A stretch of 32,364 nucleotides of DNA from Oscillibacter valericigenes (GTDB lineage: Bacteria; Bacillota; Clostridia; Oscillospirales; Oscillospiraceae). Below the pieces are notes generated by a model. It did not search any database. It was not told where the DNA came from and saw only the letters and a list, made by a program, of their open reading frames with translations. Position numbers and translations under genes: made by a program. The stretch covers positions 1 to 32,364 of the forward strand of contig NZ_JAFBIQ010000025.1 of the NCBI RefSeq assembly GCF_021531315.1, read 5' to 3'. Positions 1,113-24,954 of this stretch are shown here, piece after piece; the stretch's first letter is position 1; each line of letters begins with the position of its first letter.

Positions 1113-1133
1113 TATTACTCTACAAATGCGACA

Positions 1134-5256: not shown

Positions 5257-5345
5257 AAATTGTGTATAAGGTCAATTTTGCGCTGTTCCAATTGTTTTGG
5301 TAGCTATTCAGAATAGTTATCAGTATAATGTGGTTTGCCAAAAGT

Positions 5346-5372
5346 GGTTGGTATCATATTATGATACCAACC
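5346..5372. promoter_or_regulatory. 27-bp perfect palindrome upstream of the first recombinase
   Basis: GGTTGGTATCATA (5346-5358), a central T, then TATGATACCAACC (5360-5372): 13 bp per arm with no mismatch. It ends 26 nt before the recombinase ATG. A second, imperfect palindrome AGCTATTC-A-GAATAGTT lies at 5302-5318. The DNA form suits an operator for a dimeric regulator or the recombinase itself; the RNA form would be a hairpin in the leader. Confidence 0.6.
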
Positions 5373-5398
5373 AAAAAACGAGAGAGGAGGACACCGAA

Positions 5399-6940
5399 AT
5401 GCCTGAAGTACGGCTCATCACCCCGATCACAAGACAGAACACGAAGAAGATGCAGGTTGCAGCTTACTGCCGAGTGTCTTCCAACTCCGCTGATCAGCTC
5501 AACTCCTATGCCGCACAGATCCGAGCATACAAAAAATGCATCGGAGCACGCGACGATTGGGAACTGGTGGACATCTTCGCCGATGAAGGGCTCACTGGAA
5601 TGAAGAGCGAAACCCGTGATGAATTTCAGCGGATGATCCGCATGTGTGAGCTCAAGCAAATTGACCTCATCATCACGAAATCCATCTCCCGTTTCGCTCG
5701 AAACACAAAAGACGCTCTGGCCTATGTAAGAAAGCTCAAGTTGCTGGGTGTGGGCGTTCAGTTTGAAAAGGAAGGCATCTCGACGCTGTCTATGGGCGAC
5801 GAGATGCTTCTTAATACCTTCTCTGCTCTGGCGCAGGAGGAATCGCAGTCCATCTCTATGAACCAGCGCCTCTCAATCGTCAAACGCATGGAACTTGGCG
5901 AGTATGTGGACAGCAACGCCCCTTACGGATACCGGTTGGTCGACAAGGCATTGGCTGTGTACGAGCCGGAAGCTGCTGTTGTGCGGGACATTTTTGACCT
6001 GTATTTGCGGGGTTTCTCCATCAGTGAGATTGGCAGAGAATTGAAGAGTCGCAATATTCCTACCAAGGCCGGCAAGGAGAGCTGGCATCCGTACCGAATA
6101 GCCTATATGCTGAAAAATGAACGGTATATCGGCGATAGTTTCTATCAAAAAACTTACCGTGAAACAACGGTCCCATTCAACCAGCATATCAACCGCGGAC
6201 AGGAAGATCGCTTCTATGCCAAAGGAACACATCCCGGTATCATTGACAAGGATGTGTTCAATGCTGTTCAGCAGCTTATCCAAAAACGCAAGGAGACTTT
6301 CTCCAGAACAACTACCCAAAATATCTATCCGCTTACAAGCCGCATTCAGTGTTCTGAGTGCGGCTCTTTCTATCGGCGAAGGAGTGTGTCGGGTACTGTG
6401 AAGTGGGTATGCGCCCTTCACAAAGATGACAGCACAGCTTGCGATTCTCACTATTATAGCGAAGAACGGATCTATGACGGCTTTATCACCATGGTGAACA
6501 AGCTGCGGTTCTCTGAAGATAACATCCTCGGCCAAGTCATCAGCCGGCTAGAGATGACGCTGGCAGCTATGAAGCGGAACAATCTGGTTGCGCGCGATTT
6601 AAGCAATAGTATTGCCGAGTTGAATGCGAAACTGCTCATGCTCGAACAGCTCCGATCCAAGGGATACCTCGCCCCTGAAGTTTATCAGGCACAAGCCAAT
6701 GAGATCGGTGCAGAGCTGGCAAGGCTCAAGGATGTCAGGCAGGAAAAGTTTAATTCAAAGGCTGCCTCCATGCTCGAGGAAGTCAAGAAATTTAAAATGC
6801 TCATCTTCGAACTGGAAGAACCCCTTGAGGCATTCGATGAGAAACTCTTCCTGGAAATCGTGAAGTCCATCCAAATCAATAAAGAGGATGAAATGTCCGT
6901 AGAATTCCTTGGCGGACTTCGATTCAGGGAACGCATATAG
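5399..6940 (+). CDS. Large serine recombinase 1 of the triple cassette
   Basis: A site-specific serine recombinase of 513 residues. The catalytic resolvase domain spans about 18-165, with nucleophile Ser27 in YCRVSS and the arginine-rich motif SRFARNT at 97-103. A recombinase domain follows (about 175-280), then a zinc ribbon with Cys318, Cys321, Cys338 and Cys348, and a coiled coil (about 395-470). This is the layout of TnpX- and phiC31-type integrases. The start at 5399 follows AGAGGAGG; an in-frame ATG further upstream (5297) lies before the palindrome and is less likely. It should integrate or excise the element through a covalent Ser-DNA intermediate. The next recombinase starts 9 nt after its stop. 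All catalytic residues are present. Confidence 0.92.
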   Translation: MPEVRLITPITRQNTKKMQVAAYCRVSSNSADQLNSYAAQIRAYKKCIGARDDWELVDIFADEGLTGMKSETRDEFQRMIRMCELKQIDLIITKSISRFARNTKDALAYVRKLKLLGVGVQFEKEGISTLSMGDEMLLNTFSALAQEESQSISMNQRLSIVKRMELGEYVDSNAPYGYRLVDKALAVYEPEAAVVRDIFDLYLRGFSISEIGRELKSRNIPTKAGKESWHPYRIAYMLKNERYIGDSFYQKTYRETTVPFNQHINRGQEDRFYAKGTHPGIIDKDVFNAVQQLIQKRKETFSRTTTQNIYPLTSRIQCSECGSFYRRRSVSGTVKWVCALHKDDSTACDSHYYSEERIYDGFITMVNKLRFSEDNILGQVISRLEMTLAAMKRNNLVARDLSNSIAELNAKLLMLEQLRSKGYLAPEVYQAQANEIGAELARLKDVRQEKFNSKAASMLEEVKKFKMLIFELEEPLEAFDEKLFLEIVKSIQINKEDEMSVEFLGGLRFRERI

Positions 6941-6949
6941 GAGGCAGTC

Positions 6950-7831
6950 ATGAAAAAGACGCGGTATATCCCATACGGATACACAATGCGCAATGGTAGA
7001 ACGGTCATCTCCGGAGAAGAAGCAGAAGTTATCAGAGAAATTTTCAAATCGTATCTGAACGGAGCTTCCTTGAAAGCGATTGCTGACGAGTTGACCGACC
7101 ACCAGATTCCTTATACGCAAAAGAGCGCTATATGGGATAAGGCCCGTATTGCAAGGATCATCGACAACGCCAAATATGCAGGAACAGAAGAATATGATCC
7201 CATCATAGATGAGGAAATGTACGAGGCGGCAGTTAACCTGAAAATCGCTCGTCAGTGTAATGCTTGCGAAAAGGAAAACGATGCCATCGACCTGCTCCGA
7301 GAATTCGTTCGGTGTGACAGCTGCGGACACCCGATGAAACGCCGCATCAACGCAAAGCATCACATTCGAGAAAGCTGGAACTGTACCAATGGTGAATGCG
7401 GCATCAGAGTCCGCATCAGCGATACCCAACTCATCGAAACCATTACAGTCCTCATCAATCGGGTCATCCTCAATGACCATCTGCTCCAGCCGAAGCCCAA
7501 GAAACGGTATGAGCCAGATGCGAAGGTCACCAAGGTAGGAAATGATATCGCTCTGGAGCTGGAGCGTGACGCTCCAAACGAGGAGTTCATCATCGAAAAG
7601 ACCATCGAGATGGCAGCGCTCATGTACGAGCAGAGCAATGCCAAGTTGAACCTCACAGTATCGCTCGCAAGAAAGCTGGCACGAACGATGGTCACGCAGG
7701 ATGAATTCAATCGAGATTACTTTACCGCCCTCGCCTCATACATCACACTCGGTGAACAAGGCAAGGTGGTACTTCATACTAAGACAGAAACGGAGGTTAC
7801 GCTGGACGATGGAAGTAACGAAAGTTCCTAA
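6950..7831 (+). CDS. Recombinase-family protein lacking the catalytic domain (middle of triple cassette)
   Basis: A 293-residue protein that begins directly with the recombinase domain (PYGYTMRNGRTVISGEEAEV, typical of the segment after the resolvase core) and continues with a zinc ribbon (CDSC at about 121-124, then CTNGEC at about 143-148) and a helical tail. There is no resolvase domain and no catalytic serine, so it cannot cut DNA by this chemistry. A good ribosome site (AGGAGG) and a tight fit between two recombinases argue that it is a real gene, not a broken end. It probably binds att DNA as an accessory subunit, which is inference. It overlaps the next gene by 23 nt. Confidence 0.85.
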   Translation: MKKTRYIPYGYTMRNGRTVISGEEAEVIREIFKSYLNGASLKAIADELTDHQIPYTQKSAIWDKARIARIIDNAKYAGTEEYDPIIDEEMYEAAVNLKIARQCNACEKENDAIDLLREFVRCDSCGHPMKRRINAKHHIRESWNCTNGECGIRVRISDTQLIETITVLINRVILNDHLLQPKPKKRYEPDAKVTKVGNDIALELERDAPNEEFIIEKTIEMAALMYEQSNAKLNLTVSLARKLARTMVTQDEFNRDYFTALASYITLGEQGKVVLHTKTETEVTLDDGSNESS

Positions 7832-9440
7832 AAAAATCGTCACTGTCATAGAGCCAAAACGCTCCATGACAGTAGACAAAGAAAAATACAGGCAGAAGAA
7901 GGTTGCCGCATACTGCCGTGTCTCGACAGACAGCGAAGAGCAGCTCGTCTCCTACGCCAACCAAAAGAAGGTGTACACCGAGATGATCGCCAGCCGCAAA
8001 GATTGGTGCTTTGCAGGTCTCTTCGCTGACGAGGGTAAGTCCGGCACAAGAGCCGACAAGCGTCCCGAGTTCAATAAAATGATCAACGACTGTCTGGCCG
8101 GGAAGATCGATTACATCATCACCAAATCCGTATCCCGCTTTGCGAGAAATACGGTAGACTGCCTCGACTATGTCCGAATGCTCAAGTCCAAAGGCATCGG
8201 CGTCTATTTTGAGGAGCAGCAGATCGACACACTCAAGACAGACAGCGAGCTGTATCTGGTCATCTATGCTGGCTTCGCACAGTCCGAATCCGAAAGCATC
8301 AGTAAGAACATTACTTGGAGCGTTCGCAAGAAGTTCGAGGAAGGAACACCAGTGTTCATATACAAGCGGTTCCTTGGCTATAAAAAGGGTGCTGACGGTG
8401 AGCCTGAGATCGTACCGAGTGAAGCGGCCATCGTGGAACGTATCTTCAATCTCTATCTGGCTGGAGAAACCGTGGACAATATTTCCAAGATGATGCAGGC
8501 TGAGAACTATGATATCCCCGGCAAAACCATCAGCTTTAGCAAGGGCATGATCATGAATATGCTCTCCAACGAACGATACTGCGGAGATGTGATCCTGCAA
8601 AAATCCGTCACCGTTGACTGCATCGAAAAGAAGCGGAAGAAGAACACCGGAGAAGCTCCAATGTACTATGTTCAGAATAACCACCCAGCCATCATCGACA
8701 GAGTGACCTTCAACAAGGTTCAGGAAGAACTGGCCAGGCGAAAAACCAAAACGCCAGGATCTGCAAAGAGTTCCATCACATCCACCGGAAAGTATTCTCG
8801 CTACGCCCTGACCGATGTGCTCATCTGCGGCACCTGCGGTACCCGCTATCGCCGCGTGACATGGTCAAGAAATGGTACCAAGCGCATCGTGTGGCGCTGT
8901 ATCAGCCGACTGGACTACGGCAAGAAATATTGCAGCGATTCCCCCACCATTATGGAGGACAAGTTGCAGGAATCCATCGTTCGAGCGGTCAACAAGTTCA
9001 ACAAGCAGGATAACGCCACCTATAAGGCACTCATGAGAGCAACCATCAGCGAAGCCCTCGGCCTTAATGGAGATCCGGAAGAAGTAGATATGTTGGAGCG
9101 AAAGATCGAAGCCTTAAACAATAAGATGCTGGCCCTTGTCAATGAGAGTGTCAGTTCTGGCGATGGTATCGAGGCCCACGAAAGCGAGTTCATGACACTG
9201 TCGCAGGAAGCAGAACTCCTCAAGCAGCGTATAGCAGCCATTCAGGAAAGCACCGCCAAGGATAACGGTGAGCAGAACCGTCTCGAGCAGATTCAAGCTA
9301 TCATTGCCGAACGAGAAAGTAAGTGCATGGAGTATGATGATTCCATCGTCCGCCAGATGGTAGAATGTATTAAGGTTTATCCTGGCGGCAAGCTGGAAAT
9401 CATCTTCGGTGGCGGATACCTTGTCGAAGAATCCGTCTAA
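7809..9440 (+). CDS. Large serine recombinase 3 of the triple cassette
   Basis: A 543-residue serine recombinase. The resolvase domain is about residues 30-180 with nucleophile Ser39 in YCRVST and the motif SRFARNT. The recombinase domain follows (about 190-300), then a zinc ribbon beginning CGTCG, then a long coiled coil near 410-500. The ATG at 7809 follows GGAGG by 13 nt and overlaps the end of the preceding gene by 23 nt, which suggests translational coupling; an upstream in-frame ATG at 7701 lies deep inside the previous gene and is less likely. It is distinct in sequence from recombinase 1, so the two may form a heteromeric integrase. Catalytic residues are intact. Confidence 0.91.
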   Translation: MEVTKVPKKIVTVIEPKRSMTVDKEKYRQKKVAAYCRVSTDSEEQLVSYANQKKVYTEMIASRKDWCFAGLFADEGKSGTRADKRPEFNKMINDCLAGKIDYIITKSVSRFARNTVDCLDYVRMLKSKGIGVYFEEQQIDTLKTDSELYLVIYAGFAQSESESISKNITWSVRKKFEEGTPVFIYKRFLGYKKGADGEPEIVPSEAAIVERIFNLYLAGETVDNISKMMQAENYDIPGKTISFSKGMIMNMLSNERYCGDVILQKSVTVDCIEKKRKKNTGEAPMYYVQNNHPAIIDRVTFNKVQEELARRKTKTPGSAKSSITSTGKYSRYALTDVLICGTCGTRYRRVTWSRNGTKRIVWRCISRLDYGKKYCSDSPTIMEDKLQESIVRAVNKFNKQDNATYKALMRATISEALGLNGDPEEVDMLERKIEALNNKMLALVNESVSSGDGIEAHESEFMTLSQEAELLKQRIAAIQESTAKDNGEQNRLEQIQAIIAERESKCMEYDDSIVRQMVECIKVYPGGKLEIIFGGGYLVEESV

Positions 9441-9653: not shown

Positions 9654-9763
9654 AGGATCTCCTCCTCATCAGGCATAAGGCCGGATGCATATCGGTAAGG
9701 TAGTCAGCACACAATGAAGTATGGGATAATCGCAGACACGCTATCTTTTAATGTCTTTATTTA

Positions 9764-9792
9764 TTGACAATTATAGATGTATCGTCTATAAT
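9764..9792 (+). promoter_or_regulatory. Consensus promoter with operator inverted repeat for the HipBA-like pair
   Basis: TTGACA (9764-9769), 17 nt, TATAAT (9787-9792): a perfect sigma-70 consensus. Within it, TTATAGA (9771-9777) and TCTATAA (9785-9791) form a perfect 7-bp inverted repeat with a 7-nt spacer that covers the spacer and the -10 box. Antitoxins of this family repress their own promoter, so this is the expected operator. Confidence 0.75.
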
Positions 9793-9828
9793 AACAAGCA
9801 CAAAGATGATGTGGAGGTGGTGTGCAGA

Positions 9829-10137
9829 ATGGGACGAAAGAGTGTTGCTGTGCTGCCGCAGACGCAGGCAATTTTAGAACAGCTGGGAGAACAGATCAAA
9901 CTTGCCAGATTACGGCGGCATCTGTCTGCCGAATTGGTCGCGGAAAGAGCTGGTGTGAGCCGAGCCACAGTGTGGAATGTTGAAAAGGGAAACCCCTCTG
10001 TCGCGATTGGGATCTATGCCGCAGTTCTGCACGCACTGAACAATATGGATAAAGACCTTCTGCTCGTTGCAAAGGATGATGAGCTGGGGCGTAAACTCCA
10101 AGACCTTGAGCTTACCACGCGCAAGAGAGCACCATGA
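9829..10137 (+). CDS. HipB-like XRE antitoxin/regulator
   Basis: A 102-residue protein with an XRE helix-turn-helix at about residues 20-75 (LRRHLSAELVAERAGVSRAT is the core). The tail DELGRKLQDLELTTRKR is typical of HipB-like antitoxins. The start at 9829 is chosen because GGAGGTGG lies 9-16 nt upstream; an in-frame ATG at 9751 lies upstream of the promoter and is excluded. It is followed 17 nt later by a HipA-like kinase, giving the usual antitoxin-toxin order. It should bind the inverted repeat at 9771-9791 and neutralise the kinase by complex formation, as known for HipBA. Confidence 0.87.
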   Translation: MGRKSVAVLPQTQAILEQLGEQIKLARLRRHLSAELVAERAGVSRATVWNVEKGNPSVAIGIYAAVLHALNNMDKDLLLVAKDDELGRKLQDLELTTRKRAP

Positions 10138-10154
10138 AACGGAGGTGATTAACC

Positions 10155-11417
10155 GTGGCGTCAAACCAAAAAGTAATTTATGTCTATGAGAGCTTCAGAT
10201 CTACAACGCCAAACTTCCTGGGGACTCTCTTCGTGGAGAATGTCCGTGGCCGGGAGAGCTACTCATTTGAATATGATGCTGACTGGTTAAAAAGCAGCGC
10301 AAACTACATGTATCTCGACCCGGATCTTCAGCTGTATGCCGGTCGGCAGTATCCCACCGGTGCAAAAAATGTGTTCGGCCTTTTCGCTGACTCTTCCCCC
10401 GACCGCTGGGGCCGCCTGCTGATGACGCGCAGAGAAAGAATACTTGCTGAACAGGAAGGACGGAAGCCTCGAAAACTCTTAGACAGCGACTTCCTGTTGG
10501 GCGTCTACGACGAGACTCGGATGGGCGCGATCCGCTTCAAGCTGGACAAAGACGGCCCGTTCCTTTCGGATGATTCAAAAACCCCGACGCCTCCCTGGAC
10601 CAGCTTGCGAACGCTGGAGGAAGCCTCCCGTCAATTCGAAAACGATGAGTCCGGTCTCGAGCAGAAATGGATCAATCAGCTCATCAAGCCCGGTTCCTCG
10701 CTGGGCGGCGCTCGTCCGAAGGCCACCGTTCTGGACACAAGCGAAAATCTGTGGATCGCCAAGTTTCCGTCCAAGCACGACGATGTTAATGTGGGCGCAT
10801 GGGAAAAGGTCACCCATGACCTTGCAAGACTTTGCGGCTTGGATGTTCCCGAGTCCATGCTGATCGACTTCTCCAAGTACGGAAGCACCTTCCTTGTACG
10901 ACGGTTTGACCGGAATGGTGCTGTGCGGATTCATTTCGCATCCGCCATGACAATGCTCGGAAAAACGGATGGGGCATCGGCTGCGGACGGCTCCAGTTAT
11001 CTTGAACTGGTGTCCTTTATCAAGGCCAACGGCGCTGCTCCCAAGAGAGATTTGACAGAGCTATGGAAGCGGATCGTGTTCAATATGGCTGTTTCCAATA
11101 CGGATGACCACATGAGGAATCATGGCTTTATCCTCAAGGCGGATGGCTGGCATCTCTCACCCTTGTACGATGTAAACCCCGTCCCGGAGGGTGACGAGCT
11201 GTCCCTCTGCGTAAACGAGGACGATGCGACGATTTCCCTCGACCTTGCGCTGGAGATCGCACCGTATTGTGAGATCAGCACCAAGGACGCAACTGCTATG
11301 GCGGCGGATGTCCTGAAAACCGTCCGAGAAAACTGGAATCGTCTGGCAGCGGAATGCGGATTAAGCCGGAGCGCACAGGAATATATGCGGCCGGCCTTCT
11401 CGCTGGCTCTTGAATAA
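10155..11417 (+). CDS. HipA-like serine/threonine kinase toxin
   Basis: A 420-residue HipA-family kinase. The start is GTG at 10155 behind GGAGGTG. Visible motifs are the loop SSLGGARPKA (181-190), where Ser182 corresponds to the autophosphorylated Ser150 of E. coli HipA, the ATP lysine Lys203 in WIAKFPS, the catalytic NTDDHMRNHGF (Asp317) and the metal-binding LYDVNP (Asp339). The N-terminal region (1-130) matches the HipA N1/couple_HipA domain (FGLFADSSPDRWGR). HipA toxins phosphorylate a tRNA synthetase or another translation factor; which target is used here cannot be read from sequence. Paired with the HipB-like gene, it may stabilise the mobile element. All kinase residues appear intact. 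Confidence 0.92.
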   Translation: MASNQKVIYVYESFRSTTPNFLGTLFVENVRGRESYSFEYDADWLKSSANYMYLDPDLQLYAGRQYPTGAKNVFGLFADSSPDRWGRLLMTRRERILAEQEGRKPRKLLDSDFLLGVYDETRMGAIRFKLDKDGPFLSDDSKTPTPPWTSLRTLEEASRQFENDESGLEQKWINQLIKPGSSLGGARPKATVLDTSENLWIAKFPSKHDDVNVGAWEKVTHDLARLCGLDVPESMLIDFSKYGSTFLVRRFDRNGAVRIHFASAMTMLGKTDGASAADGSSYLELVSFIKANGAAPKRDLTELWKRIVFNMAVSNTDDHMRNHGFILKADGWHLSPLYDVNPVPEGDELSLCVNEDDATISLDLALEIAPYCEISTKDATAMAADVLKTVRENWNRLAAECGLSRSAQEYMRPAFSLALE

Positions 11418-11502: not shown

Positions 11503-12357
11503 CTATTCCTCAAGGACAGGATCATCTGCAAGCGGTTCTTCATTTTCCTCTACGAAATCATCTTCTACCGCAACCTTCCCAGAATGCAGCTTCGTCATTC
11601 GTAAGGTGTACTTGCATTTTCGGTTATATGCAACAAGCATAGCTTCGGCATAGCCGAGAGAGCCTGCACCGCGCTCTTTAGCAATACGAGAAAGCTGACG
11701 AACAGACATGAAGCCGACCTTTTCCTTAAAGGTTTCATCACGAAGCTGATCGCCAAATGCCACGACCATCTTTGCAACGCCAGCCAATACATTTGCACCG
11801 AGAGAGTCGATATCTCCCTCCCATGTACCAACGCAGAGCCGCAAAGTTCGGTCAAGCACATGGTAACCATATTTGGTGTAGATCCGCTCCAGCGTAGCAA
11901 CCGCACAGATCATGCCATATGCTTTGGTCGGCCCGATAGAAAGAGAATAGGATTCTACCAGCCGCTTAATAACGAGCTGCTGTTCATTTCCCGCTTCGAT
12001 ATTTGCCATGAATATCTCGTAAGGCTTCAGCGGCCGCACATGCTTCATCTGATTTGCAAAAATGTCCGCTTCGTTCTTGTAATCTAAGCTGTCATAAATC
12101 ATGCACCAAACAGGAGTTTCCCGCGAACCGGATACAGTAGCAACGATCTCTATGGTGTGCTGACCATTAAAGACATAGTTGACACCATCACGGCGGCTCA
12201 CCTTTACCGGGTTGATTTGGTTCAGGTCGAAATCCTCGATGGCTTTTTCAACCTGAGCCTGAGACAATGGCCGCTGGTATTCCTGATTAGATACGAGATT
12301 TTTGATCGGGATCTGCTCGAAGTGGACATTCGGAACAAATCTGCTGAAGTCTTGCAT
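11503..12357 (-). CDS. ParB/sulfiredoxin-fold protein 2, end of minus-strand cassette
   Basis: A 284-residue protein. The N-terminal domain (about 12-110) looks like the ParB/Srx nuclease-like fold: a conserved start (QIPIKNLVSNQEYQRPLSQAQ), then NPVKVSRRDGVNYVFNGQHTIE, in which NGQHT replaces the classic DGxHR motif. The rest is helical, with an acidic end (EENEEPLADDPVLEE). Unlike partition ParB proteins it lacks an obvious ParB-type helix-turn-helix. Its ATG overlaps the stop of the upstream ParB-like gene by one nucleotide (TAATG), so the two are co-translated. Proteins of this shape occur on Firmicutes mobile elements with unknown roles. An NTP-dependent DNA-binding role is possible by family. 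Confidence 0.75.
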   Translation of the reverse strand: MQDFSRFVPNVHFEQIPIKNLVSNQEYQRPLSQAQVEKAIEDFDLNQINPVKVSRRDGVNYVFNGQHTIEIVATVSGSRETPVWCMIYDSLDYKNEADIFANQMKHVRPLKPYEIFMANIEAGNEQQLVIKRLVESYSLSIGPTKAYGMICAVATLERIYTKYGYHVLDRTLRLCVGTWEGDIDSLGANVLAGVAKMVVAFGDQLRDETFKEKVGFMSVRQLSRIAKERGAGSLGYAEAMLVAYNRKCKYTLRMTKLHSGKVAVEDDFVEENEEPLADDPVLEE

Positions 12358-13295
12358 TAGTCTACCTCCCTGATATCTGAGAGCATCTCGGACACCTTCT
12401 CCTGTAGTGATAGCAGTGCTTCCTCGAGTCTGCTTTTTGCGCCCGTGGATGCAGCATTCATGTCCGCATTGTTTCTGGCTCTTTCAATGGAACTGACCCA
12501 CGACGGAACTGTAAGAGTCAAACCGGCGATTTCAGCATCTGGATCGTGCATAGGTGTAATTTTGATAAGTGGTAAAGTCACCTGCATAGGTTCGACTGGC
12601 TCCTCGTCTGTATCAGCAAATTCTTTTCGCGTATCACTATAACTGGTGAAGGGGTGTTGCAGGTCCTCAGGTTTTGACCCAATTCGCCTGATCTCTTCCG
12701 GAGGCATTTTCGAAAGGGCCACAAGGTTCTCGTGAGATATTTTGAAAGTGCCAGAAAGCACTTTGCCAGGAAGTTCGGGGTCTGCCTGTCCAACAACGTC
12801 TAATGCCTTACTGAAGATCGCATACTTCTGCACAGATCCAGTAGATACATTGTATTGAGCGCTGAACTTCTGGGCTGTGCGCCGAAAAGTATCGCCTCGC
12901 TCACCCTTGTTTCTCCGCTTATACTGGTTGAACCCATTGATGTTGGGCGGATGCTTACGCGCTACTTTCTCAAGTTCATACTGCTTTCCAATGAGATATC
13001 GTCTGGTTTCCTCCGTGATATTTCGGCGGCCGAGCTGATTGCTGCAGATCCAGACAATCGCTTGCTCTCGGTTCTCAAATGGCATCTTCCGTACAGCATA
13101 GGGGATGTGCAGCCGGTTACATATCTCGTAGCGATTATGGCCATCAATGATGATGTTATTCCATGTGATGATCGGCTCTCTGCAACCGTCTACTGTAAGA
13201 TTTACTTCGAGTTGAAGATACTCATCTTTCCGTAGAGGTCGAATGAGTGTCTTAAATTCCGGGTCGATCTCCAACACCGCAAATCCTTTATCCAT
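12357..13295 (-). CDS. ParB-like nuclease-fold protein 1
   Basis: A 312-residue protein (start at 13295, MDKGFAVLEIDPEF). Residues about 10-85 form a ParB-N-like domain with the motif IIIDGHNRYEICNRLHIPY, which carries the DGHNRYE signature, followed by a helical region (IVWICSNQLGRRNITEETRR) and a helical C-terminus likely to be coiled coil (about 270-310). A longer start at 13316 is possible, but 13295 gives the same 8-nt overlap with the previous gene (ATGGATAA) seen at three other junctions in this cassette, and a GAGGAG site lies upstream. The protein could bind DNA and act in partition, transfer or recombination control. The call rests on motif and order. Confidence 0.78.
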   Translation of the reverse strand: MDKGFAVLEIDPEFKTLIRPLRKDEYLQLEVNLTVDGCREPIITWNNIIIDGHNRYEICNRLHIPYAVRKMPFENREQAIVWICSNQLGRRNITEETRRYLIGKQYELEKVARKHPPNINGFNQYKRRNKGERGDTFRRTAQKFSAQYNVSTGSVQKYAIFSKALDVVGQADPELPGKVLSGTFKISHENLVALSKMPPEEIRRIGSKPEDLQHPFTSYSDTRKEFADTDEEPVEPMQVTLPLIKITPMHDPDAEIAGLTLTVPSWVSSIERARNNADMNAASTGAKSRLEEALLSLQEKVSEMLSDIREVD

Positions 13296-13677
13296 CGCTG
13301 GGAGGTCTCCTCTCATTTTTCTTTAAGGTTTTCATGGAGAAATAGGCTACTCTGTTTGCAACATCCACCTCTCCGCTCATACGATAACTGTATTGGAAGT
13401 CGAGAGTACCGATCATGTTGACCAAAGCACACAGGAGTGTATTACTGTAGAACTCAATAGAATAATGGCGTGATGTTTGAACCAACTTCACTCGGTTGGA
13501 GGTGCCACCAGCGAGGGGCCGATCTGAGCCAAGTACAGCAATGAACATTTCTTCTGGATTGACCAGAAATTGAACATATTGCGGATTCCCCATTTTGTTC
13601 AGGGTGGACTTATGTATGCGAAAGCGATTCCACTTTAAGTCAATGGTCATGATCGCGCTGTTATCCGTACTACCCAT
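13288..13677 (-). CDS. Stand-alone copy of a recombinase-linked domain (129 residues)
   Basis: A 129-residue protein of no family I can name. It appears to be a minimal copy of the domain at the C-terminus of the neighbouring 630-residue recombinase and in the 268-residue protein. The shared order is: beta segment with hydrophobic ends (NRFRIHKSTLNKMG), then YVQFLVNPEEMFIAVLGSD (compare VQLLINRESHILALRP and VELLIHPGLRKLAVRR), a polar gap, then an ALVNMIGTLDFQYSYRMSGEV block (compare FELMDWNIDYRYKLIGKVI). This match was seen by eye. It is coupled to both neighbours by 8-nt overlaps (ATGGGTAG upstream, ATGGATAA downstream). A DNA- or recombinase-binding adaptor is conceivable. Confidence 0.75.
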   Translation of the reverse strand: MGSTDNSAIMTIDLKWNRFRIHKSTLNKMGNPQYVQFLVNPEEMFIAVLGSDRPLAGGTSNRVKLVQTSRHYSIEFYSNTLLCALVNMIGTLDFQYSYRMSGEVDVANRVAYFSMKTLKKNERRPPSDG

Positions 13678-14476
13678 TTACACTCCCCTCCTGCACAGGT
13701 ACCTCTGGTTGATATGCGGTATGGACTGATGTGACATTTTCCACGGATGCCGTGGAGGATACAGAGCTATCCTTGATTCCATAAATCGCGTATCCGTCAA
13801 AGATATTGATCTGCAGAGATTTCTGGTGTTCACGATAGGGCAAACCGAACTGATCCTTCCAACCGGCTGGGAATACAGGTGTACGCGCAGTCTTGGGCTT
13901 GCCTCCGTCTTTTGCAATACGCTGATAAATCTCGGAGGCGTTCAAGTCGAATACAATCAGATACTCATCATTAGCATGGATGACCTTGCCAATCAGCTTG
14001 TACCTGTAATCAATATTCCAGTCCATCAGCTCAAAGAGCTTTGCAAAGAAGAACTTACCCGTCACCTGACGGGGCCTCCTCTTCCCACCAGATGTGTTGC
14101 ACCACGCGAATGCGTCTCGCTCTGACTCGGCGCAAGGGCGTAGCGCAAGAATGTGCGACTCTCGATTGATCAAGAGCTGGACACAGTCTGCATGGGGAAA
14201 CTTGTTCAAGCAAGCAGTATTGACATAAACTTTGTAATTGTTGAAGGTGATAGACGGCTCGAAAGTATGAGCGAAGAACTCCCTACGAACCACCTGATAC
14301 CCATCAAAATCGAAGTCGTCACTAAGTTCGATCACATCGCCTAGTGCCGATGCGTCGATTGTCATTGGCGTGTCCACATCCTCCTTAAAAGTAATGGTAG
14401 TTTCATCATCGATATTGCCGAATTGAGCATTCTGCAGCATCGGTGGGATGAAAGAAACCTGATTATCTACTTCCAT
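13670..14476 (-). CDS. Second protein carrying the recombinase-linked domain (268 residues)
   Basis: A 268-residue protein, family not recognised. After an acidic N-terminus (1-60) it carries, at about 65-190, the domain shared with the recombinase C-terminus: SITFNNYKVYVNTACLNKFP, VQLLINRESHILALRP, then FAKLFELMDWNIDYRYKLIG and the ending DEYLIVFDLNASEIY (compare DSVFLFDLSEPEIF in the recombinase). The similarity seems to extend into a short PAGWKDQFGLPYREH region (compare PKKLADRFGSDFYSH). The start lies 12 nt after the stop of the 75-residue gene, with an AAGGAGAT ribosome site. No cysteine zinc motif or membrane segment is visible. A structural partner of the recombinase is the best guess. 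Confidence 0.75.
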   Translation of the reverse strand: MEVDNQVSFIPPMLQNAQFGNIDDETTITFKEDVDTPMTIDASALGDVIELSDDFDFDGYQVVRREFFAHTFEPSITFNNYKVYVNTACLNKFPHADCVQLLINRESHILALRPCAESERDAFAWCNTSGGKRRPRQVTGKFFFAKLFELMDWNIDYRYKLIGKVIHANDEYLIVFDLNASEIYQRIAKDGGKPKTARTPVFPAGWKDQFGLPYREHQKSLQINIFDGYAIYGIKDSSVSSTASVENVTSVHTAYQPEVPVQEGSVNG

Positions 14477-14488
14477 TCTGATCTCCTT

Positions 14489-14716
14489 TCATTCGTCTCT
14501 GACAAGATCCAGCGCATCTCCAATCTGGCGTAGGCTCATGATGAGATAGCGACAAAGCCGTCTGAGTTGTTCCGCGTTATACTCTGCCATGATCTCATCC
14601 TGCTCGGCTTCGGACAAATCAGAAAAGCATCTGTTGATATGTATACCATCACGAACCACGCGGTAGTACACTCCATCAAGATTCCGAAAGATTGGAATAT
14701 TGTTTTTTTCAGGCAT
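14489..14716 (-). CDS. Small cassette protein (75 residues)
   Basis: A 75-residue protein, unrecognised. It has a short beta-rich start (IPIFRNLDGVYYRVVRDG) and a helical second half (SEAEQDEIMAEYNAEQLRRL). Its ATG overlaps the end of the recombinase gene by 8 nt (ATGCCTGA), the same geometry as three other junctions in the cassette, which supports it as a real translated gene. It may be a small accessory protein such as an excision or directionality factor, but there is no helix-turn-helix that I can see. Confidence 0.65.
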   Translation of the reverse strand: MPEKNNIPIFRNLDGVYYRVVRDGIHINRCFSDLSEAEQDEIMAEYNAEQLRRLCRYLIMSLRQIGDALDLVRDE

Positions 14717-16601
14717 TAAAATCCACCTCTTCCATCTGCTTTATGGGGGCTAATTGCTCTGCTATGAATCGCTGCATTTCATCAAACTTGGTGACTCGAA
14801 GCTTCTCACCGGTTTCAAAGAGTTGGCCTTCCAGCCAAAGCTTCCATGCATCTTCACTTTGTAATTCCGGTGAAGATGAGGTAAGTCTGTGAGAATAAAA
14901 GTCACTACCAAACCTGTCTGCCAGTTTCTTCGGAACTGCCCGAATACGCTTTCCTGATACGGAGAGAGGAGAAAGCTCACCGTCGCCGCTGATGGGAGAA
15001 TCTGTCCCCGTCATGAGATAGGACTGGATAAAAATCTCAGGCTCACTCAAATCAAATAGGAACACCGAATCTCCTTCGTTTTGGAGGAGTCTACCATAGG
15101 CCCTGAACTTAAAATCGGTTTCCCAATCGAGCAGTTCGAATAGGGTTCCACCAAATGCGGTACATGGTATCTCTTTGGCATAGTATTTTCCATCATCGGG
15201 TCGTGACCACTGTACGCACTGGCGAGAATCCTTAGCGGCGCGACGAACAGCGAGCTTCCGCAATCCCGGATGGATCAGCAGTTCAACTTTGTTGTCCTTC
15301 CCGAACTGCCTGACGCAATCTGTGCTGAACTTGATTTGTTTGCTCTGAAATAAGACATACGGTCTTTTGTTCGCATCAAAGAGAGATGAATTCGTAACTT
15401 CGAAGCCGCGCAAATCAAAATCTCCAGCTGCCACCTCGAATGTAGCGTCACCCTCTGCAGGCTGGCCGTAATATGTATCGTCCGTGTAGACACTCATAGA
15501 AGCCTGTAAATAATCGGCTGCCTTGAAACCTGCCCACTTAGGGCTAATCGTGACAAATCCTTTCAGAACGCCAGATTCAATCACCCGAAGCTCCGGCAGA
15601 ATAGACTTTCCGCCGTATTTCGCATTATTGATCATGTGCTGAACGGCTATATAATCGTCCCGCGACACGATTGCCTCGTGTTCTCCTTTATACAGGCTCT
15701 GCTGCCGTTCTCCTCTGTTTTTCTTGGACTTATGACTAATCACATCAGGCGTGAATGTCTTTCTTGTGAGAACATCACCACAATGCCGCTCATTCCTCAA
15801 GACCTGAATTACGGTGCCGGAAGTCCACTTGGAATTACCAAGGAATGTCCTCTTACCAAGTGCCTCGAGGGTTTTTGCAATATGCGATGAAGAATATCCG
15901 GACAGATACATGTAGAATATGAGCTTCACGGTCGGCGCTTCGTCCGGATTGATCACCAACTTGCCGTCAGCATCATGGGAATAGCCCAACAGCTTGGGTG
16001 TCAGAGGAAGTCCTCCATTCAACCGCTGAGCAAGCGAAACTTCCATACTGCGGCTTCGAATGCGGGACTCGTTTTCCGCAATGGAAGCCAAAAAAGACAG
16101 CGGCATGTTTGTATCCTCGTTCAACGAGAAGATGCATTCACTCTCGAAGAAAACGCCCACTGGATTGCGGAGCTCCGCAAGATTCCGCACCATAGTAATA
16201 CAGTCGACGGTATTTCTGGCAAGGCGAGAAACCGATTTAGTGATGATCAAGTCGATTTTTCCGGCTCTGCTGTCAGTGAGCATTTGGTTTAGCTCAGCGC
16301 GGTGTTTTGTCGAAGTGCCCGAGATTCCTTTATCGGCGTAGATCTTTACAAGCTTCCAATTGGGATGCTTCAAGACGAACTCTTCATAATAGTTCTTCTG
16401 AAGTTCATAGGAAGTTTCCTGACCGAGATTATCAGTTGAAACTCGGACGTAGACCGCAACACGCTGATGGACATCTGCATCGTAGAAGTCGACCTGTTTC
16501 TTTGCCGGATAGATGACATCTGGCTCTCTTCGATTCGAGTATCGCTTATGTACTTTCTCACGTTCTGCTTGGTCGGCTGCTTTCTTTGCTGATTTACTCA
16601 T
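14709..16601 (-). CDS. Large serine recombinase with an unusual C-terminal domain in place of the zinc ribbon
   Basis: A 630-residue serine recombinase. The resolvase domain is about residues 45-190 with nucleophile Ser55 in YVRVST and SVSRLARNT at about 123-131. The recombinase domain follows (about 200-325). Where other large serine recombinases carry a Cys4 zinc ribbon and a coiled coil, this protein has a cysteine-free segment (GVLKGFVTISPKWAGFKAAD, about 344-363) and then, at about 394-527, a domain that is repeated in two neighbouring stand-alone proteins. The start at 16601 (MSKSAKK) has an AGAGGTG site and overlaps the preceding gene by 8 nt; a GTG 3 codons upstream is less likely. 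It is a second integrase-type enzyme on the element, oriented opposite to the triple cassette. Confidence 0.9.
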   Translation of the reverse strand: MSKSAKKAADQAEREKVHKRYSNRREPDVIYPAKKQVDFYDADVHQRVAVYVRVSTDNLGQETSYELQKNYYEEFVLKHPNWKLVKIYADKGISGTSTKHRAELNQMLTDSRAGKIDLIITKSVSRLARNTVDCITMVRNLAELRNPVGVFFESECIFSLNEDTNMPLSFLASIAENESRIRSRSMEVSLAQRLNGGLPLTPKLLGYSHDADGKLVINPDEAPTVKLIFYMYLSGYSSSHIAKTLEALGKRTFLGNSKWTSGTVIQVLRNERHCGDVLTRKTFTPDVISHKSKKNRGERQQSLYKGEHEAIVSRDDYIAVQHMINNAKYGGKSILPELRVIESGVLKGFVTISPKWAGFKAADYLQASMSVYTDDTYYGQPAEGDATFEVAAGDFDLRGFEVTNSSLFDANKRPYVLFQSKQIKFSTDCVRQFGKDNKVELLIHPGLRKLAVRRAAKDSRQCVQWSRPDDGKYYAKEIPCTAFGGTLFELLDWETDFKFRAYGRLLQNEGDSVFLFDLSEPEIFIQSYLMTGTDSPISGDGELSPLSVSGKRIRAVPKKLADRFGSDFYSHRLTSSSPELQSEDAWKLWLEGQLFETGEKLRVTKFDEMQRFIAEQLAPIKQMEEVDFNA

Positions 16602-17217
16602 GGAGAGCACCTCTCATATCCAGCTCGTCATCAGGCAAGATTTTCCAGCCGGATGTTGGGAAGAAATAGGGCTCCCGAAGGTCATCACGATAATATGAGG
16701 CCAAAGTGTATAGATCTTCTGATATGAAGTAGATGCCAACAGGAGGCTTGCGAGCGGCGAGTATTCTTGCACAAATCGTCATTTCTTGGGCATCTCTGGA
16801 CACATTGCTGACCTTCTGTGTGATTATGAGATCGACTTTCCCAGCATCGCAGTCAGACAGGAGTTCAGACCATGCTGTAGAGTTCTCCATATACGGAGCG
16901 GTCGATCCATTGTCAATATAGAAACCTACAAACTCCCACATAGGATACTGCGCCAGCGTAGCACGAAAAACCTCTTTGTTGCGTTCGAGATATTCCTCGT
17001 CTCTATATTTCGTCTGGTTGAAAAAGCGGATGTACACTGCAACCTTGAACGGGATCTTGGGGTTCGGTACTTCATGGCGGATAGTTTTCAACCACTGCCT
17101 GTGTTGTGCCACAAGGGGTGATACCATGTTTTCTCCCAGGCACAGGTCAAAGGAGGGATACTCAGTCTCTTCGAGTCCTTGTTCAGTACCTAAAGGCAGC
17201 AGTTTCGTGTTTTCCAT
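16594..17217 (-). CDS. Resolvase-fold protein lacking the catalytic serine (dead recombinase partner)
   Basis: A 207-residue protein with only a resolvase-like domain (about 57-175). Where active enzymes read YVRVST, this reads YIRFFNQ, so the nucleophile position is Phe66. The arginine motif SRFARNT is also degraded (IITQKVSNVSRDAQEM). The rest of the fold is well kept: WEFVGFYIDNGSTAPYMENS matches the Y-ADxGISG-T region, and CDAGKVDLIITQKVS matches AGKIDLIITKSVS of its neighbour. The start at 17217 follows GGAGG by 5 nt; longer in-frame starts lie upstream. No recombinase domain or zinc ribbon follows. It is translationally coupled (8-nt overlap) to the active recombinase, so a regulatory or heteromeric role is likely; plain decay is an alternative. 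Confidence 0.82.
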   Translation of the reverse strand: MENTKLLPLGTEQGLEETEYPSFDLCLGENMVSPLVAQHRQWLKTIRHEVPNPKIPFKVAVYIRFFNQTKYRDEEYLERNKEVFRATLAQYPMWEFVGFYIDNGSTAPYMENSTAWSELLSDCDAGKVDLIITQKVSNVSRDAQEMTICARILAARKPPVGIYFISEDLYTLASYYRDDLREPYFFPTSGWKILPDDELDMRGALHE

Positions 17218-17284
17218 GTTTTCCTCCGGCATTTGGGCAAGCCCTTTTGGGTGAATTATAGGGAAAATGCTTAAAAATAAGAAG

Positions 17285-17316
17285 ATACCATAGGTCAGCA
17301 TCTTGACCTATGGTAT
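17285..17316. terminator. Hairpin A upstream of the cassette, near the XRE gene end
   Basis: ATACCATAGGTCA (17285-17297), loop GCATCT, TGACCTATGGTAT (17304-17316): a perfect 13-bp stem. It lies in the 143-nt gap between the dead-resolvase start and the XRE stop. Its core resembles the hairpin at 18253-18294 on the other side of the XRE pair. Confidence 0.55.
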
Positions 17317-17332
17317 GGAAATGACAAAAAAA

Positions 17333-17363
17333 TTATCGGATTGGTCACCCAATCCGATAATTA
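17333..17363 (-). terminator. Terminator of the minus-strand XRE gene
   Basis: ATTATCGGATTGG-GTCA-CCAATCCGATAAT is an almost perfect stem that begins at the stop of the XRE gene (17361). Read on the minus strand it is followed by TTTTTTTGTCATTTCC, which fits an intrinsic terminator for that gene. Confidence 0.7.
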
Positions 17364-17714
17364 ATCATTATTCTGCTTCTTATGCATGGAGGCTTTGACC
17401 TCTCGGACAATCTTTAAGATGGTTTCCATCTCACTGGCCGAGCAGTCTTCAAGGAGCTCCGCAAACTCACCTTGATAGATTGCTTTGACCTCCGGTACAT
17501 CTGGGCGGAGCAAATAGTCTGCAGATACCTGAAGGGCTTCCGCCACTTTGACGAAAGTCTCAAGTTGCATCCCCGTCTTTCCTCGTTCGATGTTGCTAAT
17601 CAGCGGCAGTGAAACAGAAGCTTCGACTGCCAAATCCGCTTGACTCATGCCTCTGCTGATTCGAACAGCTTTGATGCGTGAGCCGACCAGCTTCAGATCT
17701 TGTTCTTCATACAT
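17361..17714 (-). CDS. XRE-family regulator A
   Basis: A 117-residue regulator with an XRE helix-turn-helix at about 10-65 (MSQADLAVEASVSLPLISNI is the core). A helical tail follows, with the pattern LLEDCSASEMETILKIVREV. That tail resembles the tail of the divergent regulator at 17,867 (IFANCTPYETYVLLDVLKTT), so the two are probably paralogues. A GGAGGTG ribosome site lies before the ATG at 17714. It lies between the minus-strand recombinase cassette and the cargo operon; it may repress one or both. The tail with a conserved Asn/Asp-Cys-Ser/Thr is a feature of a clostridial XRE group, with unknown ligand. Confidence 0.88.
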   Translation of the reverse strand: MYEEQDLKLVGSRIKAVRISRGMSQADLAVEASVSLPLISNIERGKTGMQLETFVKVAEALQVSADYLLRPDVPEVKAIYQGEFAELLEDCSASEMETILKIVREVKASMHKKQNND

Positions 17715-17866: not shown

Positions 17867-18226
17867 ATGCAACTCAATTACTATGTCCTTGGTCAAAGAA
17901 TCCAGAAAATCAGGAAGAACAAGCGGATCTCCCAAGCGGTGCTGTCCACCATGATCGACAAGTCCGCTGGATACATCAGCTATCTCGAGTGCGGTACAAA
18001 GGTTATGAGTCTCGAAACTTTTGTTGGCATCGCCAATGCGCTGGAGGTGTCGACTGATACGCTCCTGAACAGGCAGCTCACGGGTGCGACTGAGATGTCT
18101 AATGCCGAGGCGCAGAAAATCTTCGCCAACTGCACCCCGTATGAAACCTATGTCCTGTTGGATGTGCTGAAAACAACCAAGAACGCTCTACGCTCGCACC
18201 ACCATCTCCTCAAGGATGAGTGGTAA
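17867..18226 (+). CDS. XRE-family regulator B
   Basis: A 119-residue regulator with a helix-turn-helix at about 8-62 (ISQAVLSTMIDKSAGYISYLE is close to the recognition region) and a tail with the ANCTPYETYVLLDVLKT motif shared, in altered form, with regulator A. The ATG follows AAGGAGG with an 8-nt gap. It is divergent from regulator A across a repeat-rich spacer and lies 180 nt upstream of the cargo operon. A classical paired-regulator switch (CI/Cro-like) is a fair model, based on orientation alone. Confidence 0.88.
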   Translation: MQLNYYVLGQRIQKIRKNKRISQAVLSTMIDKSAGYISYLECGTKVMSLETFVGIANALEVSTDTLLNRQLTGATEMSNAEAQKIFANCTPYETYVLLDVLKTTKNALRSHHHLLKDEW

Positions 18227-18252
18227 TCATTTTATCAACTGAATATCAAATA

Positions 18253-18294
18253 GCAACAGACCACAGGTTAAGAGATTGACCTGTGGTCTGTTGC
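18253..18294 (+). terminator. Hairpin B after regulator B
   Basis: GCAACAGACCACAGGT (18253-18268), a 10-nt loop, then ACCTGTGGTCTGTTGC (18279-18294): a perfect 16-bp stem. The core ACCACAGGT/ACCTGTGGT matches hairpin A (ACCATAGGT/ACCTATGGT) with a paired base change. There is no T run directly after it, so it may be a processing or binding structure and not a plain terminator. Confidence 0.6.
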
Positions 18295-24187: not shown

Positions 24188-24401
24188 TGGCAAAGTTACG
24201 ATTACCATAGAAATCGATGCAGAACTGCTGGCACAGGTAACCGATGTGCTAAAGCCTTATGGCCTCACGCCGGAAGAAGCCGCGGTGCAGTTCTTCGAAT
24301 ACTGTGCCGACCCAAAGACACAGGATCATGCGATTACACTTCTCAAAAGGTGGAAAGAGGAACAGGAAGCGCAAGAGAGGAATAGCACCAATGCTAAGTA
24401 A
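24177..24401 (+). CDS. RelB/DinJ-like small protein
   Basis: A 74-residue protein. The segment VTITIEIDAELLAQVTDVLK, then GLTPEEAAVQFFEY, matches the ribbon-helix-helix start of RelB/DinJ antitoxins. The start at 24177 follows GGAGG and overlaps the phosphoesterase gene by 11 nt. No RelE/YafQ-type toxin follows; the next gene has no such motif. It could be a DNA-binding regulator of the operon or an orphan antitoxin. Confidence 0.7.
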   Translation: MMDDGKVTITIEIDAELLAQVTDVLKPYGLTPEEAAVQFFEYCADPKTQDHAITLLKRWKEEQEAQERNSTNAK

Positions 24402-24732
24402 AGAAGGGTTCTGCAAAGCACTCCAGATGATAAAGGAGCAAGAGTCCATCGACGAACAGTTCAGCAAAGCACTCGACCTAGTTGGCAATGGCCACTTTGT
24501 ATTCGGTACCGAAAACAAGTATCTTCTGGCTCTTAGAGATGTTTTGAAAGAAGCGGTCAATGACCAATACGACTACATCGATTGGTGGCTGTATGAAGCA
24601 GCCGATGACTATACGGTATGGGAAGCAAATTGTACCATGAAGTATTGTCTCAAAGAGCCAGAAGCCCTGTATGATTATATAACTGGTATGCTAAAACCTA
24701 TCCCTGTATCTTCCGGAGAAAGCACATCATAG
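24391..24732 (+). CDS. Unknown cargo protein (113 residues)
   Basis: A 113-residue acidic, mostly helical protein beginning MLSKEGFCKALQMIKEQESI. The segment DYIDWWLYEAADDYTVWE looks conserved in character (aromatic and acidic). It overlaps the RelB-like gene by 11 nt; a GAGAGGA ribosome site lies upstream. The family is known to me only as hypothetical proteins of Clostridia; no function can be given. Confidence 0.65.
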   Translation: MLSKEGFCKALQMIKEQESIDEQFSKALDLVGNGHFVFGTENKYLLALRDVLKEAVNDQYDYIDWWLYEAADDYTVWEANCTMKYCLKEPEALYDYITGMLKPIPVSSGESTS

Positions 24733-24753
24733 TAGGAGTAAAGGAATGTCAAA

Positions 24754-24954
24754 ATGAAAAGACTGCCGCCACTATCCGAAATGGAACGCATCGAGCAAAC
24801 ACTGCTCGTCGAAAAACTGGATGAAATCCTGGAACGCATTGGCAACGAAGACATCGGCTTCGTAATAACAGAAAACGGTCTACCAGATATGGTCCTTATG
24901 CCATTCCGCTGGTTTGCCGAGAACTTTCCGGATGAAGTGCCTGATGGCCTATAA
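24754..24954 (+). CDS. Small protein, possibly Phd/YefM-antitoxin-like
   Basis: A 66-residue protein with IGFVITENGLPDMVLMPFRW, which resembles the xxPVVITxNGKPxAVLLP signature of Phd/YefM antitoxins, here at the C-terminal side of a helix. The similarity is short and by eye. The ribosome site is AAAGGA. No toxin partner is evident. Confidence 0.5.
   Translation: MKRLPPLSEMERIEQTLLVEKLDEILERIGNEDIGFVITENGLPDMVLMPFRWFAENFPDEVPDGL

Follow-up and report, generated by a model that had tools for sequence, protein, structure and literature searches.

We describe here a group of genes built around a serine recombinase in a 32,364-nucleotide stretch of Oscillibacter valericigenes DNA (contig NZ_JAFBIQ010000025.1), the whole of which is referred to below as the window. 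The recombinase, called REC-V, carries a domain without a name, which we label V, and the same domain is found in two small proteins, p268 and p129, encoded beside it. Together with their neighbors these genes make up a module that is recurrent in temperate phages of gut Clostridia and is not local to the window. The operon is preceded by a 36-bp palindrome and a -10 box, an element that is a new observation beyond the original prediction, which was made from the DNA letters and concerned the V domain. Also missed at that time were a dead resolvase-domain partner of REC-V, a pair of ParB-like proteins, the phage setting, and the pairing of the palindromic promoters; these features point to lysogeny control as much as to recombination. 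The most likely reading, to which we give a probability of roughly 0.4, is that the module is a recombinase-derived DNA-binding complex acting in lysogeny.

The V domain in a recombinase and two neighboring proteins

The three open reading frames named in the original prediction were verified at the following positions, all on the minus strand.

14709 to 16610, minus strand: REC-V, serine recombinase of 633 residues with a GTG start; catalytic domain at residues 51-195 (PF00239, 7.6e-25), recombinase domain at 222-328 (PF07508, 9.7e-22)
15027 to 15431, minus strand: V domain of REC-V, residues 394-528 (phmmer, BLASTP, profiles, AlphaFold2)
13670 to 14476, minus strand: p268, stand-alone V protein of 268 residues; V core at 13922-14326 (BLASTP, phmmer, profiles)
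13288 to 13677, minus strand: p129, stand-alone V protein of 129 residues; V core at about 13306-13635 (profiles, AlphaFold2)

The V domain is one domain common to residues 394-528 of REC-V, 51-185 of p268 and about 15-124 of p129. Compared as single sequences, the first two match strongly (BLASTP 3e-21, phmmer 4e-21) and p268 matches p129 weakly (BLASTP 2e-4, phmmer 1e-3); REC-V and p129 match at 0.003 by BLASTP, but in a register different from that of the profile alignment. Profiles built from orthologs of REC-V, p268 and p129 (25, 25 and 26 rows) gave significant matches among all three segments: p268 with REC-V at 3.3e-29, a match that extends into a common C-terminal stretch, residues 15-124 of p129 with 79-186 of p268 at 5e-12, and residues 14-119 of p129 with 421-525 of REC-V at 7.5e-12. 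The control, p129 against a resolvase-like protein, gave 0.32. The claim that a single domain occurs in the recombinase and in two adjacent stand-alone proteins is thereby confirmed, with one register for all three, and the profile alignment pairs four of the strands on which it had been based, VQLLI/VELLI/VQFLV, LAVRR/LALRP/IAVLG, DFKFRAYG/DYRYKLIG/DFQYSYRM and VFLFDL/LIVFDL/VAYFSM.

The structure predictions agree in the main. The AlphaFold2 model of p129 (pLDDT 87.7) runs strand-strand-helix-strand-strand, then strand-helix-strand-strand-strand, and residues 418-529 of the REC-V model have the same order of elements; the agreement is broken only by two additional short strands (465-472) in REC-V. 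The confidence of the REC-V model is 68.7 over the whole chain, with 10-residue means of 73-87 over 421-530 and low values at 394-410. The V domain has no significant family match in Pfam, NCBIfam or PHROGs; in the same three collections p268 finds no family at E 1 and p129 no significant one. Searches of solved structures were likewise negative: the p129 model has no match in the PDB at E 0.001 or below (the best, a PCNA, is at 0.022 with a TM-score of 0.22), and the best E values in a sequence search were 1 for the p129 profile and 9.5 for that of p268. Three predicted viral models do match the p129 model at E 0.001 or better, with a best TM-score of 0.58; two of these are named as uncharacterized or by gene number and one is nameless. 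Two guesses about the fold were set aside. An AbrB/MraZ-like fold, suggested by the strand-helix-strand pattern, found no support in the fold searches, and a sliding-clamp fold was suggested by several weak PCNA or clamp matches near the top of the PDB list, none of which is significant.

It had also been proposed that the V domain stands in REC-V in place of the zinc ribbon of large serine recombinases. This is supported: REC-V has no PF13408 match in Pfam and no CxxC pair. Serine integrases without a PF13408 match do exist, and number 10 of 42 in one study (PMC4701971). The nucleophilic serine is present, within an RVS motif, in 101/101 full-length relatives of REC-V, 96 of which also have an SRxxRN-type motif. 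The catalytic domain of REC-V is apparently active, and the serine kept in every full-length protein suggests that strand cleavage remains under selection.

The opposite is true of RES, which is encoded just upstream.

16594 to 17217, minus strand: RES, resolvase-domain protein without the catalytic serine (PF00239, 4.2e-5); Y-I-R-F-F-N replaces Y-x-R-x-S

Not one of 61 RES proteins has the catalytic serine; 60 fit Y-I-R-Y/F-F-N, with phenylalanine at the serine position, and the remaining one reads YIRTHH. The SRxxR motif is usually SNVSK or similar (SNVSR in the window), and, as read from alignments, RES stops short of the long dimerization helix. The reading frame opens at 17301, with candidate ATG starts at 17217 or 17232; the start at 17217 (or 17232) is likelier because the promoter -10 box described below would fall inside the extension to 17301.

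A tree of 133 V domains has four groups and 3 label changes, which is the fewest possible; the REC-V copies lie on one side of a branch with 99/98 support, and many other forks are unresolved. The idea that stand-alone copies could swap with the domain of the recombinase is, in the evolutionary sense, not borne out, since the three V copies group with the fewest possible label changes. In our reading, p268 and p129 are old V-domain paralogues.

Genes of the module and their distribution

Leftward from 17714 the module runs XRE117, RES, REC-V, p75, p268, p129, ParB319, ParB284, of which REC-V, p268, p129, ParB319 and ParB284 are taken as the five core genes. The members not yet listed, and the divergent gene on the other side, are as follows.

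17361 to 17714, minus strand: XRE117, first gene of the operon, repressor-type helix-turn-helix protein (HTH_3, 2.4e-13)
14489 to 14716, minus strand: p75, small protein of unassigned function; by eye, other loci have small proteins like it
12357 to 13316, minus strand: ParB319, ParB-like (DGHNR motif) with a helix-turn-helix-like stretch, both by eye or consensus; PHROG 21315, 2e-9
11503 to 12357, minus strand: ParB284, DUF6551, ParB-like (PF20188, 6.5e-31; PHROG 1033, ParB-like, 1.7e-13)
17867 to 18226, plus strand: distal divergent XRE gene, first of the rightward early genes (HTH_19, 9e-8)

PHROG 21315 is a family of unknown function; in Pfam ParB319 finds nothing at E 1 except RPAP1_N at 0.13, and no family is shared among 18 of its relatives. 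No ParA-like gene was recognized in the module itself, and the search for one did not extend to the flanks. By eye, p75 resembles recurrent small proteins (LDGxYY...CFSDL...) around the control regions of these phages, for example in L115, L045 and L080 (L numbers denote loci, G numbers genomes).

The module was examined in 114 loci, namely 32 genome loci found with REC-V as the query, 80 viral loci found with p268, and two phage records. The presence of the query gene is a matter of selection and that of the other genes is not; the loci are redundant, and, counting only loci in which the palindrome is clear and REC-V is long, 43 are left at 95% REC-V identity. Among the 32 loci found with REC-V, p268 is present in 30 and p129 in 30, the exceptions being L038, where the contig ends inside the recombinase, and L031, which has a fusion. 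With these counts, the word "partner" used in the original prediction for the stand-alone copies is fair in the sense of a genetic link. Over all 114 loci, REC-V is found in 105, p268 in 112, p129 in 112, ParB319 in 109 and ParB284 in 107, and all five core genes lie on one strand in identical order in 98. RES occurs in 54 of the 90 loci that have at least 1.5 kb upstream of REC-V. Downstream, on the opposite strand, other serine recombinases without a V domain are found in 56 of the 75 loci with at least 3.5 kb there.

DNA similar to p268 is present in 20 of 50,697 phage records and in 1 of 72,556 plasmid records. Sixteen of the 20 phage records are of the PV0364xx series, and the eight that were examined are labelled Ca. 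Heliusvirales; each has the module and two recombinase-type genes downstream, where the module in six of the eight is recognized by annotation and position only and half of the second recombinase-type genes are called hypothetical. Among 60 genomes, ranging from the window's own up to its order, 6 have a p268-like match, its own included.

Several loci depart from the common form. L178 (G005) and L179 (G031, a 6.2 kb contig) have RES-like, REC-V, p268-like and p129-like genes and no ParB match; the L178 module is near an integrase which, from its translation, resembles a tyrosine recombinase. In L180 (G032), three serine recombinases are followed on the same strand by REC-V, p268 and p129, and this REC-V is missing about its first 75 residues, the catalytic serine included. 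In L031 (6425-9040), REC-V is fused in frame to ParB284 in a protein of 871 residues, with p268, p129 and ParB319 not found beside it; L182 (6163-8778) is very probably the same contig, both being 13,412 bases long, and the fusion is counted once. In L019, at 9677-10801, some 1.1 kb of unrelated sequence splits the ParB319 gene. Five loci (L106, L109, L117, L130 and L131) have other recombinases upstream and a further stand-alone protein of 172-199 residues that resembles a resolvase domain.

Some loci also have cargo next to the operon. By eye, toxin-antitoxin-like genes (a helix-turn-helix pair, Fic-like or HipBA-like) lie upstream of RES in L018, L037, L096 and L026; such cargo adjoins the palindrome or falls between ParB284 and the other recombinases. 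HipB/HipA-like genes, again by eye, are at 9751-11417 in the window, left of the module. Cargo of this kind would suit a role of the module in superinfection exclusion, in which dead RES and the free V proteins, expressed by the lysogen, disable the recombinases of phages that enter the cell; the conservation of a dead catalytic-domain protein and the placement of the operon on one side of a divergent repressor-type pair are in keeping with the idea. We nevertheless consider it quite improbable, as none of the six module proteins tested matches a PADLOC model, 36 of 90 loci gave no RES, and the module is constant where defense genes usually vary.

Palindromes and predicted promoters

The control region of the operon has the following elements.

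17283 to 17318, minus strand: proximal 36-bp palindrome, before RES and REC-V
17255 to 17260, minus strand: TATAAT, 22 nt behind the proximal palindrome
18256 to 18291, minus strand: distal 36-bp palindrome, behind the divergent XRE gene
18229 to 18234, minus strand: TAAAAT box of the distal palindrome, 21 nt on, read antisense to the distal XRE gene

The palindrome came from a search for inverted repeats and consists of 16-nt arms, TTGACYNSTGGTTTAT, flanking a variable 4-nt center. A weight matrix found 97 sites in 1,654,678 bases and 1 in the reversed sequence, a statistic that is partly circular since the matrix was trained on the loci searched. By a looser frame score, devised after the sites had been seen, 79 of 98 upstream regions lie above the 99% level of random segments, and related palindromes are found at the same position in other clades. 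The proximal site precedes RES or REC-V and the second follows the divergent XRE gene; the two are 963-995 bp apart in 19 of the 21 listed pairs, and 1984 and 2811 bp apart in the other two. Allowing up to 2 mismatches, a pattern derived from the window finds only its two source sites in the 2.48 Mb genome and none in 17 other genomes of the genus, though this pattern would miss variants, the one in L031 for example. Four complete phage records each have a single site for a clade-specific pattern; a fifth, which starts 49 bp before REC-V, has none.

The palindromes show some variation of their own. In L016 and L044, which are 98.6% identical, the 4-nt center of a perfect proximal palindrome is reverse-complemented (GGTG and CACC). 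In a clade of close phages (L124, L129, L186, L190 and L191) the center varies and the arms are nearly constant. Three viral contigs (L063, L073 and L123) begin at or within 20 bp of the palindrome, which may come from the assembly or reflect a true difference at the site.

The spacing of the -10 box played no part in finding the palindromes. Of 47 distinct proximal sequences, 45 have a box with at least 5 of 6 matches that begins 21-22 nt behind the palindrome; by chance, 18% of random 70-mers contain such a box anywhere in the part scanned. A second scoring rule puts the proximal box at 21-22 nt in 44 of the 47 and at 20 nt in 3, with a mean of 5.62 matches out of 6. At the distal sites, in the direction of the operon, the box (again at least 5/6) is at 21-22 nt in 17 of 21 distinct sites. 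The other sides are different: such boxes are present in 12 of 21 distal sites at scattered distances, and -10-like boxes in 13 of 47 proximal sites on the side facing XRE. The -35 region is near chance (2.72 against 2.48 matches of 6, with 5 or more in 0/47). A -35 region near chance beside a strong -10 box is the usual sign of an activator-dependent promoter, and an activator, we infer, would act at the palindrome. The palindromes follow XRE genes, and intrinsic terminators were considered for that reason; they were set aside on the conservation of the arm sequence itself and the fixed spacing of the -10 box.

The predicted distal promoter reads antisense through the divergent XRE gene toward XRE117 and the module. 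The architecture is thus that of two predicted promoters with a common palindrome, one of them antisense to a gene in the cro position, and it is limited to loci with a second palindrome. A gene for a CII-type activator was looked for among the clusters of upstream open reading frames in 37 loci, and no universal candidate was found; the sole cluster present in all 37 is that of the XRE proteins.

As to the protein that binds the palindrome, XRE117 is less likely. The palindrome occurs both where only the plus-strand XRE gene was found and where only the minus-strand one was found, in a search with a single query that may miss distant XRE genes, and a protein of the core module is for this reason the likelier binder. 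The half-site is 18 bp long with its share of the center. According to PMC3783163, the contacts of a serine integrase on attB reach about position 19, and this similarity of reach favors REC-V. We also correlated half-site distances with protein distances, taking no account of relatedness, and obtained 0.52 for ParB319, 0.45 for ParB284, 0.45 for the recombinase domain of REC-V, 0.43 for its catalytic domain and 0.40 for its V domain, then 0.29 for XRE, 0.28 for p268 and 0.25 for p129. With its helix-turn-helix-like stretch and these correlations, ParB319 stays a candidate.

The inserted element and its likely integrases

The module in the window lies within a larger insertion that has recombinases of its own.

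1864 to 24485: insertion of 22.6 kb within a umuC-like gene for a Y-family polymerase, from junction comparison
5297 to 6940, plus strand: zinc-ribbon serine recombinase, first of a triplet, probable integrase (PF00239, PF07508, PF13408)
6950 to 7831, plus strand: second of the triplet, with matches to the recombinase domain (PF07508) and the zinc ribbon (PF13408) only
7701 to 9440, plus strand: zinc-ribbon serine recombinase, third of the triplet (PF00239, PF07508, PF13408)

Window positions 73-1863 (98.7%) and 24486-25432 (95.7%) are adjacent in a genome of the same genus with an 8-bp overlap, which shows that 22.6 kb was inserted in the polymerase gene. The element supplies a replacement 3' end to this gene, so that the reading frame stays open (1197-2438 and 24259-24732). 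No phage structural genes were recognized between the element's ends; not every open reading frame was searched. Contig C27 of the window's own genome has a stretch with 97% identity to positions 2114-2370. In that genome, roughly the first 73 bases of the window recur at the starts of three other contigs and inside another, and this repeat (window 1-73) probably broke the assembly.

The triplet sits towards the left end of the element (5297-9440). Insertion of streptococcal elements that encode serine-integrase triplets leaves repeats of 2-8 bp in the disrupted genes (PMC4701971), and for this reason the triplet is taken as the integrase. The zinc-ribbon triplet, rather than REC-V, is the likely agent of integration: with three zinc-ribbon-type genes towards the left end and an 8-bp junction that fits a serine-integrase event, a role of REC-V in the element's own integration is not supported and was set aside. 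The middle member, with no match to the catalytic domain, is a second case of free recombinase parts. Proteins of 282-303 residues with weaker recombinase matches take the same position in the triplets of L063, L064, L088, L096, L101 and L126.

How the module may work

We propose that the module is a recombinase-derived part of the lysogeny region in a large group of Clostridia phages and related elements, a proposal which we infer as regards complex formation, the identity of the binder, activation rather than repression, and the use of REC-V catalysis; the homologies, the gene order, the missing serine of RES, the further serine recombinases next to the module, the element boundary, the palindromes and the -10 spacing are seen in the sequences themselves. 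REC-V keeps the recombinase DNA-binding domain, and its V domain would read the outer part of the site or bind partners. RES is, where it occurs, a dead catalytic-domain paralogue, and the two ParB-like proteins are probable nucleotide-dependent DNA-binding factors. Together, the module proteins may assemble on the 36-bp palindromes as one nucleoprotein complex. The complex would switch the operon's own promoter and also the second promoter, which runs antisense through the divergent repressor-type gene and on into XRE117 and the operon. The establishment of lysogeny and the expression of the module would thereby be coupled, as lambda couples P_RE and P_I. The catalysis of REC-V would perhaps serve for exchange or resolution between identical sites on two phage copies.

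It is worth setting out what weighs against this proposal. A fixed -10 spacing would equally fit a repressor. The conservation of the catalytic residues is an argument that the role of REC-V goes beyond regulation. The correlations single out no binder, and the free V proteins, having the lowest values, are not favored. The palindrome score fails in 19 of 98 upstream regions, and in L178-L180 the part looked at (746 bases in L179) contains no palindrome of this type. Finally, the central dinucleotides of the two sites of a locus match in 0 of 11 pairs with 4-nt spacers. Since their centers never match, the two sites are unlikely crossover partners, and strand cleavage would appear not to be used between the two sites of one copy.

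This last result bears on several other explanations. An invertible or excisable cassette between the palindromes was rejected because of it, and because the XRE pair has one orientation wherever both genes are found. A more serious alternative is that REC-V performs site-specific recombination, with p268 and p129 as directionality or synapsis factors acting through V-V contacts. In zinc-ribbon integrases, coiled-coil contacts and recombination directionality factors serve directionality and synapsis. Recombination of this kind would account for the catalytic serine kept in 101/101 REC-V proteins, the stand-alone V genes adjoining REC-V in nearly all loci, and a palindrome of a length near that of an attB site, and it would suit L180, where REC-V, p268 and p129 follow three serine recombinases on the same strand. 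However, the REC-V of that same locus lacks the catalytic serine, other serine recombinases are the likely integrases, the palindrome pattern of the window is found nowhere else in the host genome, the centers of the two palindromes of a locus do not match, and the XRE pair has a constant orientation wherever both genes were found. We regard this alternative as possible but doubtful.

A version can also be drawn up in which no strand exchange takes place, because the centers of the two sites do not match. Here a split, multi-subunit serine recombinase, made of an active subunit, a dead one, two free V proteins and ParB-type factors, would have become the lysogeny switch of a major gut-phage lineage; it would bind one type of palindrome at two promoters about 975 bp apart, pair them in the way recombinases pair their sites, and drive the expression of the repressor and the module. 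We think this unlikely.

The mismatch of centers poses no difficulty for an explanation by dimer resolution and partition, since identical sites on a dimer would have matching centers. REC-V would then resolve phage dimers at its site and the ParB-like proteins would secure inheritance, much as in plasmids, where a resolvase resolves dimers and ParB secures inheritance. The site lies directly before the recombinase gene, as res sites do, and two ParB-like genes are present. On the other hand, no ParA-like gene was recognized in the module, the search not extending to its flanks, integration is probable for phages that have other serine recombinases, L178 and L179 do without ParB matches, and p268-like DNA is found in phage rather than plasmid records at 20/50,697 against 1/72,556. 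We judge such a role very improbable, and return to a DNA-binding complex acting in lysogeny as the preferred reading.

Significance and comparison with known systems

Serine integrases are in wide use as tools of genome engineering, and the way in which their C-terminal domains determine specificity and direction is under active study. REC-V is a natural recombinase that has no zinc ribbon and is encoded next to free copies of the domain that replaces it; it could test directly how the tasks of specificity and direction can be separated. The palindrome-plus-TATAAT element offers a simple, testable handle on when these phages of gut Clostridia enter lysogeny. In searches of the open-access PMC literature, we recognized no description of the module or its promoters and saw no account of how these phages control lysogeny, one of seven papers with the names Heliusviridae or Heliusvirales in them having been consulted. 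The founding paper on Ca. Heliusviridae/Heliusvirales lists nine core genes, with the module not among them, and contains none of the words recombinase, integrase and ParB (PMC9226167).

Like the large serine recombinases (the integrases of A118/LI, phiC31 and TP901-1), REC-V has catalytic and recombinase domains, and the solved folds nearest to it are serine-integrase complexes (9dxd, 9y66 and 9dxh) and a recombinase domain from C. difficile (3g13). Unlike them, it has a V domain for the zinc ribbon, is probably not the integrase of its element, and is encoded beside V paralogues and often a dead paralogue. The serine-integrase triplets of streptococcal integrative and conjugative elements, as described in PMC4701971, resemble the three genes in a row near one end of the element in the window, with its 8-bp overlap inside a gene; the differences are that REC-V is a separate fourth recombinase, and that no match to the catalytic domain is seen in the middle gene of the window's triplet. 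Recombination directionality factors are, like p268 and p129, small proteins encoded near a serine recombinase, but these two have a domain in common with the recombinase itself.

Phage proteins of the ParB-CTPase fold with DUF6551, which ParB284 also matches, have been described in fusions, of which one binds CTP and another ATP (PMC12704722). In contrast to them, ParB284 is encoded with a recombinase, a word absent from the text of that paper, and no ParA partner was recognized.

The closest likeness in control is to phage lambda, whose P_RE and P_I are the CII-dependent promoters for the establishment of lysogeny. In lambda, as in the predicted promoters here, two promoters with a weak -35 region share one type of operator; one reads antisense over a divergent regulator toward a repressor-type gene, and the other drives a recombinase operon. 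The present system differs in having a 36-bp palindrome, no CII-like gene that we could find, and a recombinase that is probably not the integrase.

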